Of a stretch of 64,000 bases of DNA, positions 33,898-37,073 are shown one piece after another. The stretch is from positions 1 to 64,000 of the forward strand of contig NZ_LRML01000018.1 of assembly GCF_001647285.1 (NCBI RefSeq). The letters are read 5' to 3'. Numbering within the stretch: position 1 is the stretch's first letter; each line of letters opens with the position of its first letter. Made by a program: the position numbers and the translations under genes. Below the pieces are notes generated by a model, which worked only from the letters and a program-made list of their open reading frames with translations, was not told the origin of the DNA and made no database searches. This DNA is from Rufibacter roseus (GTDB lineage: Bacteria > Bacteroidota > Bacteroidia > Cytophagales > Hymenobacteraceae).

Positions 33898-35346
33898 ATG
33901 GTGAAGTTTAAACAAATAACAGCTGCCCTACTTTTTTCTGCCATGGGTCTTTACAGCTGCATTAATTCCAACGGATCTAAAACTGCCCCCGTTGTGGCAG
34001 ACGAGGAGGTGCTTTCTGAGGAAGAGGCAGCCATTGCTAAAAACAACTACATTAACTACTGCGGTGGGTGTCATGGGCGGGAGCTGCAGACTTTCATTAA
34101 CCGCAACTGGCAGCACGGGAGCTCCAGAGAAAACTTATTTGAAGGCATCAAACACGGATATCCTAACCAGGGCATGCCGGCTTTCGCCAGCACCCTTTCT
34201 GATAAGGAAATAATTCAGCTGGTAACGTATATTCGCCAGGGCATTAAAAACCAAGAGAACAATGGCGCAGGCCAAGAGCAAAACAGTGGCAAAGTTTACC
34301 AGTCAGATGAGCTAAGCTTTAGGCTAGACACTGTAGTGACAGGCCTAAATATTGTTTGGGGAATGGCTTTCTTGCCTAACGGAGACATGCTGCTGACCGA
34401 GAAAAGTGGAAAACTGTACCGCTTCACCCAAAACAAGCAACTACAGCAAATAGAAGGCGCACCCGAAGTGCTGGACCAAGGACAGGGCGGAATGTTAGAT
34501 GTAGAGTTACATCCAGCATTTGCACAAAACAATGTGATTTACTTGTCTTATTCAGCAGTGAAAAGAGATGGAGGAACAACTCTTTCTACCACGGCCGTTA
34601 TGCGGGCGCGGCTGGAGGGAAATGCGCTGAAAGATCAAAAAGTAATCTTCGAAGGGCAGCCGTGGGAACGTACCCGACACCACTACGGCAGCCGCTTAGA
34701 ATTTGGCCCAGATGGATTTCTTTACGTGACCATGGGTGATAGAGGAGGCACCAAAACGAATCCACAGAACTTGGGCGTGTCAGCTGGTAAGGTTCACCGT
34801 ATCAAAGAAGACGGAAGCATTCCGGCAGACAATCCGTTTGTAAATCAGAGAGATGCCTTACCATCTATTTTTACCTATGGCAACCGCAATCCGCAGGGAA
34901 TGGCCCTGAACCCTGACACGAAAGAAATCTGGATAAACGAACACGGGCCTAAAGGGGGCGACGAAATCAATATTATCCAGAAAGGGCATAATTACGGGTG
35001 GGCTATTGTGACCCATGGCATAGACTACAATGGTTCTATCATTTCTGATCTAAAGCAGAAAGAAGGCGTAACCGATCCTGTAAAAATCTGGACACCGTCC
35101 ATAGCTCCCTCCGGAACGGCGTTTGTGACAGGTAACCGCTACAAGGGCTGGCAAGGAGACGCGTTGGTGGGCTCCTTAAGCTTCAGGTTTCTGAGCCGGG
35201 TAAAAGTAGACGGAAACAAAGTGACAGGGGAGGAAAGGCTGTTGCAAGACATAGGCCGTGTCCGTGACGTCAAAATGAGCCCTGATGGCTATATCTACAT
35301 CTCCGTAGAAAAAGTAGGCGTGCTGCGGCTGGTACCAGTTAATTAA
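33898..35346 (+). CDS. Cytochrome c - PQQ-type glucose/sorbosone dehydrogenase fusion lipoprotein
   Basis: A 482-aa lipoprotein (lipobox LYSC, Cys21). A class I cytochrome c domain spans about residues 42-112: heme site CGGCH at 55-59, probable axial Met in QGMPAF near 94. It is joined to a six-bladed beta-propeller of the soluble glucose/sorbosone dehydrogenase family (about 125-480; ITGLNIVWGMAFLPNGDMLLTEK-like start, FGPDGFLYVTMGDRGG, YGNRNPQGMALNPDTKEIW, WINEHGPKGGDEINI). Known members oxidise aldose sugars with PQQ. The fused heme would take the electrons in the periplasm. The substrate is unproven and no PQQ synthesis genes are in the window. Confidence 0.9.
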   Translation: MVKFKQITAALLFSAMGLYSCINSNGSKTAPVVADEEVLSEEEAAIAKNNYINYCGGCHGRELQTFINRNWQHGSSRENLFEGIKHGYPNQGMPAFASTLSDKEIIQLVTYIRQGIKNQENNGAGQEQNSGKVYQSDELSFRLDTVVTGLNIVWGMAFLPNGDMLLTEKSGKLYRFTQNKQLQQIEGAPEVLDQGQGGMLDVELHPAFAQNNVIYLSYSAVKRDGGTTLSTTAVMRARLEGNALKDQKVIFEGQPWERTRHHYGSRLEFGPDGFLYVTMGDRGGTKTNPQNLGVSAGKVHRIKEDGSIPADNPFVNQRDALPSIFTYGNRNPQGMALNPDTKEIWINEHGPKGGDEINIIQKGHNYGWAIVTHGIDYNGSIISDLKQKEGVTDPVKIWTPSIAPSGTAFVTGNRYKGWQGDALVGSLSFRFLSRVKVDGNKVTGEERLLQDIGRVRDVKMSPDGYIYISVEKVGVLRLVPVN

Positions 35347-35417
35347 TGAGTAATGATCAATGAGTAATGATTAATAACAAATACTTTAATCATTGTTCAT
35401 TACTCATTGGTCATTAA
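35343..35417. terminator. Long AT-rich inverted repeat between convergent genes
   Basis: AATGAGTAATGATCAATGAG repeats on the left pair with CATTGTTCATTACTCATTGG on the right. The left arm starts in the stop codon of the dehydrogenase gene. The right arm overlaps the last codons of the Rieske gene, so it probably ends both transcripts. Confidence 0.6.
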
Positions 35418-35726
35418 AAAGAGTCCGTCTTCTCTGGCTTCTAGGGGGTAGCGTTGGAGGGGCTTAGTTCTACCTTGGCATTCTTCACCGGTGGCTAAAT
35501 GGAAACGGTAGCTGTGCCAGGGGCAAACAATTTCGTTCAGGTAATTGGTGGTGCCGCGGCTCAGGGAATCACCTAAATGCGGACAGGCATTTTTTACGGC
35601 AAAGAGACCGGCGCTGGTGTGCGCAATACATATTTCCTGCCCGTTTACAACTAGGGCTGTTGCCTTGGTAAGAGGAATCTGCTGCTTGGCTGCCGCTTCA
35701 CTTTCAAAAATCTTGATCCACCCCAT
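35400..35726 (-). CDS. Rieske 2Fe-2S ferredoxin-type protein
   Basis: A 108-aa soluble Rieske protein with ligand pairs CPH (Cys48, His50) and CPWH (Cys68, His71), 17 residues between the two Cys-x-His motifs. Lack of a signal peptide or membrane span indicates a cytoplasmic ferredoxin, as in non-heme oxygenase or nitrite-reductase small-subunit relatives, rather than a bc1 component. The partner oxygenase is not in the window. It is convergent with the sugar-dehydrogenase gene. Confidence 0.92.
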   Translation of the reverse strand: MGWIKIFESEAAAKQQIPLTKATALVVNGQEICIAHTSAGLFAVKNACPHLGDSLSRGTTNYLNEIVCPWHSYRFHLATGEECQGRTKPLQRYPLEAREDGLFLMTNE

Positions 35727-35734
35727 AGTTTGGT

Positions 35735-35774
35735 CTGTTTTAGCTTCAATTTCTGAAAAACAGCGCTAAAACGG
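35735..35774. repeat. Dispersed intergenic palindrome, copy 9
   Basis: CTGTTTTAGCTTCAATTTCT and GAAAAACAGCGCTAAAACGG. It lies between the Rieske gene start and the terminator of the first tandem small-RNA copy. Confidence 0.7.
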
Positions 35775-35786
35775 AAACTCTTATAA

Positions 35787-35946
35787 ATGAAAAAGCCCGG
35801 AATCTTCCGGGCCCCTTACACCAAACTAACAAACAAAATTTTTATTAAACCTAAATTCTATGAAGAGCCGGTTTACCAGGCCAGCTAATCTGTCTTCAGG
35901 GAACAATCGCTCGAAGAGGGATTCGGGCGGCTGCTGTCCTGATTGC
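35787..35946 (-). ncRNA. Candidate structured small RNA or micro-gene, tandem copy 1
   Basis: On the minus strand a promoter-like CATCTTTG (35951-35958; TTG about 20 nt further upstream) precedes about 155 nt that end in a strong terminator (GCCCGGAAGATTCCGGGC then TTTTT, 35790-35812). Two hairpins occur: AATCCCTC/GAGCGATT (35905-35923) and AGCTGG/CCGGCT (35866-35886). A second copy 440 nt away conserves them with compensatory changes, and a U-G pair fits only this strand. A 74-codon frame (35826-36050) also overlaps the region; its ACIFVSQ and QPPESLFERL segments are conserved in copy 2 with synonymous-type changes, so a peptide cannot be excluded. Family not recognised. Confidence 0.5.
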
Positions 35947-36226
35947 GATACAAAGATGCAGGCCTTTCTTCCGGAAGCCAACAACAATAAGATTAAGCAG
36001 GCCTTTTTCTGACTGAACTGAGAAAAAGCCGGAGTGAACCGGTACACCAAGTACCTTAACTTTACTTTTACGCGACCGAATCGGGTTATGATGTACTGGT
36101 GCTCGTCTCTTCAGACATAAACTCTTTTGGTATGCATTGTTCTACAGTAGGTACAGAGCAATGCCTACCAATTCAAAAAGTAAGTAAGGTTCAAAGCGGT
36201 TGAGGGAAGTACAGAAAAGACTGAAA

Positions 36227-36379
36227 ATGAAAAAGCCCGGAATCTTCCGGGCCCCTTACACCAAACTAACAAACAAAACTTTTATTAAACCTTAATGAAG
36301 TGCTGGGTTACCAAGCCAGCATTTCTGCTTTTACAGCAATCGCTCAAAGAGTGATTCAGGCGGCTGCCGTTGTAATTGC
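36227..36379 (-). ncRNA. Candidate structured small RNA or micro-gene, tandem copy 2
   Basis: Second unit of the tandem locus. It has the same promoter-like CATCTTTG (36384-36391), hairpins AATCACTC/GAGCGATT (36338-36356) and TGCTGG/CCAGCA (36301-36321), and an identical terminator (36230-36252). The last 66 nt match copy 1 at 65 positions, while the middle has diverged. In copy 2 the conserved peptide frame has no ATG upstream and stops after ESLFERLL, which favours an RNA or a non-ATG start. A conserved block CAGTCAGAAAAAGGCCTGCT lies upstream of the promoter in both copies. Confidence 0.5.
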
Positions 36380-36543
36380 GATACAAAGATGCAGGCATTC
36401 TTTTCTAGGCTCAACCTGATTAAGACTAAGCAGGCCTTTTTCTGACTGAAGTGAGATTTTGAGGGAGTGAAGCGGATTGTAAATACCTGTGTTGCCTTAT
36501 TTATGGCTGAAGTAGGTAAGGACGATCATCAGCTCAACAGGCA

Positions 36544-36608
36544 AAAAAATAGCTTAAAAGTAATCAGATGCCAGAGCGCAAGCGGATAGCTAAGATTACT
36601 TTTAAGCT
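36544..36608 (-). terminator. Inverted repeat downstream of the cupin gene
   Basis: A perfect 15-bp repeat AGCTTAAAAGTAATC / GATTACTTTTAAGCT with a 28-nt loop that itself holds a small GC hairpin. A T-run (TTTTTTT) follows on the minus strand, about 80 nt beyond the cupin stop codon. Confidence 0.7.
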
Positions 36609-36686
36609 TAAGTAGAGTGTGAATGTTTCTGTTTTTACGGGGGTAAAACCCTAAGGTTTAAGCTTCTCCGAAAAAAAATCAAAAAA

Positions 36687-37073
36687 TTAGTTTTTGGCAA
36701 CTGAGGGCTCTAAAACTACAATTTTGAATGTTTTGTCACCGGTGTTCCAGTTTTTGAAATGGGTAAGGTCCATCCAAAGTCTGTCGCCGGTTTTCACACT
36801 CACTTCTTTCACGCTACCGTCCGGAGTTACCATTTTCAAGGTTCCGTCAGAGGCGGCGTAGGCTTCTTGCTCTGGGTTAGAGTGGTAATCCAAGAATTCA
36901 CCTGGGGCTAACTCTAAAGACAGAATACGCACATTTTCAGTTTTCACAACCTGATGAAATACTTTGGTAGTGCGGGTGGTTGGTCCGTTTGCTGCACCGT
37001 TAGAAGCAAAAGAGGGGGCCACGTTCAACATGAAACAGATGGCAACTAAAGCGGAGGTAAAACGAGTTTTCAT
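36687..37073 (-). CDS. Exported single-domain cupin protein
   Basis: A 128-aa protein with a signal peptide of about 23 residues (to SFAS). The mature part is a small cupin barrel (VRILSLELAPGEFLDYHSNPEQEAYAASDGTLK, then GSVKEVSVKTGDRLWMDLTHFKNW). A His in the first motif and His in the second could bind a metal, though the metal set is incomplete compared with classic cupins. No enzymatic role is evident. It has its own terminator. Confidence 0.82.
   Translation of the reverse strand: MKTRFTSALVAICFMLNVAPSFASNGAANGPTTRTTKVFHQVVKTENVRILSLELAPGEFLDYHSNPEQEAYAASDGTLKMVTPDGSVKEVSVKTGDRLWMDLTHFKNWNTGDKTFKIVVLEPSVAKN

Follow-up and report, generated by a model that had tools for sequence, protein, structure and literature searches.

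A tandem duplication on the minus strand of the window (the whole 64,000-nt stretch of DNA analysed here) probably encodes a pair of trans-acting, base-pairing small RNAs of about 150-160 nt each, which would repress the translation start of acetate-use and uptake genes independently of Hfq. Judged from sequence, the locus has the features of this class: an own promoter, an intrinsic terminator, no conserved reading frame, and a conserved seed complementary to start regions beyond chance, an excess that is modest in a one-genome scan. Of the dual-function RNA proposed by a previous sequence-only reading, the structured RNA stands and the peptide does not; the complementarity of the tail to message starts, which best explains the locus, was not part of that proposal.

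Layout, conservation and structure of the RNA units

The two units (36225-36480 and 35785-36042) are 81% identical over the unit and sit between a gene for a cupin-like protein and a Rieske gene (Table 1). Identity reaches 97% over the 72 nt of the terminator-side block (35785-35856 and 36225-36296, offset 440 nt) and is 78% over the promoter-side 139 nt (offset 433 nt); within the last 68 nt of the terminator-side block, in the RNA sense, the copies differ by a single base. We thereby recovered what the sequence-only reading had described, namely a tandem 440-bp duplication of minus-strand units (the offset being that of the terminator side) with nearly identical ends, CATCTTTG promoter-like sites in both units, and a stem base change between the copies (AGCTGG..CCGGCT against TGCTGG..CCAGCA). 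The extent given there stops short of the far end of the operator upstream of copy 1 (to ~36512). The duplication is beyond chance, because the unit recurs in 16/16 genomes of the genus.

Table 1. Features of the tandem RNA locus, in positions of the window.
Feature	Position	Strand	Remarks
Predicted small RNA, upstream copy (copy 1)	36227..36379	-	153 nt, predicted to begin with the base that follows GTATC and to end at the terminator; both boundaries (promoter, terminator) are conserved across 29 copies
Predicted small RNA, downstream copy (copy 2)	35787..35946	-	160 nt; boundaries conserved in 29 copies
Invariant G/U-rich tail, copy 1 (proposed seed)	36254..36278	-	25 nt; complement found at start codons
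Invariant G/U-rich tail, copy 2 (proposed seed)	35814..35838	-	As for copy 1
Intrinsic terminator, copy 1	36229..36253	-	GCCCGG..CCGGGC and T-run
Intrinsic terminator, copy 2	35789..35813	-	GCCCGG..CCGGGC and T-run
Promoter, copy 1	36384..36416	-	-7-type CATCTTTG (reverse complement of 36384-36391) and -33-type GGTTG (36412-36416)
Promoter, copy 2	35951..35983	-	CATCTTTG (reverse complement of 35951-35958) and TGTTG (35979-35983)
Operator region, copy 1	36427..36512	-	-92 and -71 cores clearly kept
Operator region, copy 2	35994..36038	-	-71 and -92 cores clear, -50 partial
Downstream neighbour, Rieske ferredoxin-type gene	35400..35726	-	Pfam PF00355; synteny
Upstream neighbour, cupin-like secreted protein gene	36687..37073	-	Synteny; name is our own reading; product without match in Pfam search

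BLAST with one unit recovered it from all 16 Rufibacter-genus genomes, the window genome included, and from 0/43 other genomes of the set. From these loci 29 copies were taken by an exact 14-mer of the tail, which every RNA-unit BLAST match has; 13 genomes carry two copies (about 3.9 kb apart in four genomes) and G007, G012 and G013 carry one. Exact tail matches in a named genome collection, which may exclude the window's own record, came only from records of Rufibacter and Sabulibacter ruber, in 13 stretches from 10 named strains. A viral origin of the unit was considered and set aside, viral contigs giving 0 exact tail matches.

As far as each examined locus extends, the gene order is priA, the cupin-like gene, a conserved hairpin block, one or two RNA units, the Rieske gene and glucose/sorbosone dehydrogenase. 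The hairpin block is a conserved non-coding element of its own on the minus strand, between the cupin-like gene and copy 1 (36551-36608, within a wider block of ~36551-36670), with a 15-bp perfect inverted repeat as stem, the loop CTATCCGCTTGCGCTCTGG and then a T-run. It recurs with at most one mismatch in 16/16 genus genomes and in 0/188 other genomes of the family, with extra copies elsewhere in five genomes, and may be a small RNA in its own right or a terminator with a functional loop. Directly after the glucose/sorbosone dehydrogenase gene, at 35343-35417, lies a 32-nt imperfect inverted repeat (81%) of ATGAGTAATGATTAAT-like units.

An Infernal model, R1, built from 12 downstream-type copies, matched each of the 16 genus genomes with a best E of 1.6e-11 or better; in the window it scored 77.8 bits for copy 1 (36227-36325) and 71.6 bits for copy 2 (35787-35866). 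Beyond the genus only weak matches appeared, 21 rows with an E of 6e-4 or worse from 17/188 other family genomes, in a search whose filters lose some weak matches. The invariant tail is absent from all 18 of these 21 rows that were examined, and several of the 18 are terminators that follow reading frames, in some cases with a G/T-rich run. These matches may be distant kin of the RNA units. Four loci in four genomes of another genus (L136, L137, L139 and L140) share a conserved G/T-rich, TTTAATGTTTGTTATTGATTGTTTGTTTGGAGCAA-like stretch after an apparent coding frame and before a terminator, possibly a 3'-UTR-derived RNA.

In a maximum-likelihood tree the downstream copies of 12 genomes cluster together (support 81), as do the upstream copies of 11 genomes (support 89). 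The two copies of the window genome pair with each other (99), next to the G001 upstream copy (74), which suggests that the window pair arose on its own and more recently, by duplication or conversion.

In each unit a strongly conserved promoter is accompanied by operator cores at ~21-bp intervals, and the 5' domain, which is variable, is followed by a near-invariant tail and a terminator. A gapless alignment of the 29 promoters shows CA..TTTGTA.C in 29/29 copies (the same motif being the alignment anchor) and TTG at -33 in 28/29. Upstream of these, operator cores TTC(A) stand at -50, -71, -92, -112 and -133, in steps of 21, 21, 20 and 21 bp, the outer two being weaker. A two-core operator pattern allowing up to 3 mismatches is present in 16/16 genomes, with 26 of its 29 matches at the RNA locus and the other three each at 3 mismatches; window copy 1 is not among these 29 matches.

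Taking the purine after GTATC as the predicted start, the RNAs would be 131-163 nt long. The 25-nt tail, TTTTGTTTGTTAGTTTGGTGTAAGG, is identical in 27/29 copies, G007 and G013 having one A to G change, unlike the 5' domain, which diverges among the 29. The tail can also be read as TTG TTT GTT AGT TTG GTG TAA, for example at 36254-36278 on the minus strand, the G007/G013 variant turning TAA into TGA; this codon-like reading is probably a coincidence.

Stem covariation among homologues, named beforehand as a check on the predicted structured minus-strand RNA, was found. P1, a closing helix, and P2, a hairpin, are 88.6% paired in the 12 downstream-type copies, and in 9 of the pairs both partners have changed; 0/500 shuffles reach their covariation score, and slid versions are only 24-44% paired. 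The 11 upstream-type copies have a GCTG..CAGC hairpin in common, in which three pairs have changes in both bases. Across the 29 copies the P1 partner is better than shuffled arms in many and weak in several, window copy 1 being not above chance (75/200 shuffles as good). Single-sequence folds leave the tail partly free, with a mean unpaired fraction of 0.41 and 0.20 in the window copies and 0.20-0.80 over the 29. Masking of the tail by the RNA's own 5' end, which RNAalifold prefers for the downstream type, was rejected, since 11/100 arm shuffles and 117/500 tail shuffles did as well and no both-sided changes were found.

Complementarity of the tail to start regions

We searched the 16 genomes for the complement of the 18-nt tail core, allowing up to 2 mismatches, and obtained 29 self matches plus 21 elsewhere; the reversed pattern gave 6. 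The 21 and the 6 were each inspected in their sequence context. A match was counted as lying at a start when the same strand had an ATG, followed by a frame of 75 aa or more, between 20 nt before and 34 nt after the site's 3' end. By this measure 19 of the 21 non-self matches lie at starts, in the sense direction, one of them (L049; 75 aa, no Pfam match) being a doubtful member; L055, inside a gene by our reading, and L068 have no such start codon. The controls gave 2/6 for the reversed pattern (paralogues in one genome) and, in a 464-kb sample of the window genome, 84/537 for A/C-rich 18-mers and 649/4000 for random positions. At the A/C-rich rate the binomial P for 19/21 is ~7e-14, treating the matches as independent, which three orthologous pairs (three protein types in two genomes each) are not; L065 and L067 also look related.

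With names from Pfam and NCBIfam, the complement sites of the window genome include those of a TRAP DctP protein and of a NagP/FucP-like MFS transporter (below the NCBIfam cut-offs, but a partial frame). Another MFS gene, in G012, follows a KDPG-aldolase-like frame, as dctP does in the window genome (our reading). Further sites belong to an SSF symporter, an ammonium transporter (G005 and G010), acetyl-CoA synthetase (acs), a DUF485 protein, an amidase and TldD, and to a DUF2147 and a PD40/DPPIV_N protein, each in G002 and, by sequence likeness, G011. The proteins at L057, L060 and L065 have no Pfam match, and that at L067 has none either, with only weak NCBIfam matches. Single best sites such as that of dctP do not recur across the genus.

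The one-genome scan is less marked. In the 464-kb sample, which includes three stretches picked because of their matches (L121, L122 and L123), the ten best complementary sites score no higher than those of shuffled tails, and of the 40 best sites 7 lie at starts, where 12 shuffles place 0-6 and the reversed tail 2. Under Watson-Crick scoring, 10/651 start windows, representing 7 genes, reach a score of 10, against 1-7 for 25 shuffles.

Pairing with acs is seen throughout the genus. Over -45 to +12 the acs leaders of the 16 genomes have a mean ungapped tail pairing of 29.75, compared with 18.4 (sd 1.9) for shuffled tails, 0/300 of which do as well; leaving out the discovery genome (15 genomes), the values are 29.4 and 18.2, with 0/5000 as good. 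By duplex energies, 1/300 shuffled tails equals the acs mean. Six neighbouring gene sets, used as a control, gave z from -2.0 to 1.2. A DUF485 gene lies within about 4 kb upstream of acs in 13/16 genomes, and for its leaders 0/3000 shuffles are as good (3/3000 without the discovery genome); 5 of the 13 score 32 or more, the aligned start in two not being at an ATG. An Amt gene is found in 13/16 genomes, with the ATG placed in 6, and 3 of these 6 amtB leaders pair well, two of the three being discovery matches. In all these statistics orthologous leaders are not independent of one another. For the window genome, the predicted duplexes are -25.6 kcal/mol for dctP (0/300 shuffles as good), -22.4 for a dctM-like start, so named by our reading (4/300), -21.0 for the acs leader (3/300), -19.3 for the MFS gene (13/300) and -16.7 for DUF2147 (20/300).

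The acs leaders are 72-96% A/C over -25 to -1, and G/T-rich runs also precede terminators at several loci of other genera. These two observations would suit a different role for the RNAs, in which the tail is conserved for binding a protein (an RNA chaperone, or a factor for processing or termination) and its complementarity to leaders is a by-product of A/C-rich starts. We consider this unlikely: shuffled tails of the same composition match the acs and DUF485 leaders less well, A/C-rich 18-mers are not enriched at starts relative to random positions, and the reversed tail finds fewer than a third of the matches.

Proposed mechanism and remaining alternatives

In the base-pairing mechanism that we favour, each RNA would be transcribed from the minus strand under an activator bound to the repeats spaced about 21 bp apart, for which a LytTR-type response regulator is the candidate that fits best. 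The tail would target a set of messages at their A/C-rich leader and start codon, mainly those of acs, the DUF485 gene near it, and carbon- and ammonium-uptake genes, and its pairing there would block ribosome entry. Having two copies would increase the dosage or allow two sets of signals to act on one regulon. The pair would work without Hfq, which was found in 0/16 genus genomes by a search whose control matched in 5/14; another RNA-binding protein, or none, would thus be involved.

We infer that the sign of control is repression. Sites in leaders could serve either sign, and the RNAs might pair with the same start regions to activate or stabilise their targets; this is improbable, as many sites cover or abut the start codon (the ATG falling within the limits set above), the usual place for repression, and FopS and GcvB repress from such sites, according to the available portions of their reports (PMC11697453, PMC3879156).

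That the RNA also encodes a peptide, with the frame KKACL / ACIFVSQ / QPPESLFERL, is very hard to maintain. The frame is indeed present in both window copies, open in copy 2 (74 aa) and similar in copy 1 up to a stop, but the predicted RNA would begin only after nearly half of it. Both KKACL and the greater part of ACIFVSQ are promoter DNA conserved across the 29 copies; the word CIFVS is the -7 promoter element, after which the residues vary. In the relatives this frame meets stops and frameshifts, such as a 1-nt insertion in G014, and the invariant tail follows CIFVS in any of the three frames. A Pfam search gave no match, and we rejected a peptide-coding small RNA for want of a conserved open frame inside the predicted transcript. 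A repeated DNA element (mobile or terminator unit) without RNA function, as a tandem repeat with hairpins might suggest, is scarcely credible for a unit held at one locus in 16/16 genomes, with no further match in the window genome at E 0.001, promoter-grade conservation, compensatory helices and no exact tail match in viral contigs.

Returning to the repressing RNA pair, a wider reading is a tentative one, which we rate as possible. The locus may be a genus-specific, Hfq-independent hub that arrived independently at the solution of GcvB, with a G/U-rich tail silencing the A/C-rich starts of acetate-use and uptake genes, a LytTR-type regulator acting through the 21-bp repeat array, and a pair of paralogues that dates back to early in the genus and was renewed in the window genome by a new duplication or conversion.

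Comparison with known systems

LytTR operators are 9-bp direct repeats with mostly 12-bp spacers, hence a 21-bp period, just upstream of -35, in the portion of the source available (PMC6193735). The RNA promoters resemble them in having direct repeats of 21-bp period upstream of -33; they differ in having up to five cores, and the likeness drawn here is in the repeat period.

Rfam covariance models, a check advised by the sequence-only reading, gave 0 matches at gathering score in the whole 64,000-nt window. The best weak match at 35700-36700, BTnc231, reached 21.6 bits against a cut-off of 80.4 and was taken as chance. Spot 42 and other carbon sRNAs of E. coli show how one sRNA acts on many carbon-uptake genes, as the RNA pair would on its candidate targets; Spot 42 is Hfq-dependent, and its sequence is unrelated to the pair (no Rfam match).

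GcvB, which has Hfq as its partner, offers another likeness. It has a conserved, unstructured GU-rich region that pairs with CA-rich elements located within or adjacent to ribosome-binding sites in the messages of uptake genes, and these elements act as translation enhancers (PMC3879156). Common to both systems are a conserved G/U-rich pairing region, multiple targets and A/C-rich starts, the pairing being predicted in the RNA pair. The pair differs in that its G/U-rich region adjoins the terminator, its genes are tandem, and no Hfq was found in its 16 genomes. Uptake of acetate, sugar and ammonium is represented among its candidate targets, along with other proteins, whereas those of GcvB are in amino-acid transport. 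GcvB gave no Rfam match at gathering score in the window and is absent from the weak matches at 35700-36700.

Within the same phylum, FopS and GibS of Bacteroides thetaiotaomicron are paralogous sRNAs with a common seed that pair near the SusC start codon and repress translation, the FopS seed lying in a 5' single-stranded stretch and the family having 14 members, as far as the source text available goes (PMC11697453). The RNA pair is alike in being predicted paralogous sRNAs with a common seed that would pair near the start codons of uptake messages. It is set apart by seed position, its common stretch being 3', next to the terminator, and also by its one or two copies and by the lack of SusC among the named proteins at the 21 sites. 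Neither FopS nor GibS gave an Rfam match at 35700-36700, the presence of a FopS model in the Rfam release being unconfirmed. A further report, in the portion available, deals with SdhX and acetate kinase (PMC6393394).

In the literature library searched, no publication dealt with a Rufibacter small RNA or a Hymenobacteraceae sRNA, and for small RNAs in Cytophagales or Hymenobacter no sRNA study of the group appeared by title among the matches listed; within that library, this would therefore be the first sRNA regulon mapped in Hymenobacteraceae. The analysis yields a list of targets with predicted duplexes, and makes two questions testable: how base-pairing RNAs repress A/C-rich starts in bacteria in which a search found no Hfq, and whether G/U-rich seeds have arisen more than once to match such starts. 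Set beside these systems, the RNA pair appears to be a new case of a known type of RNA switch, one that arose independently.
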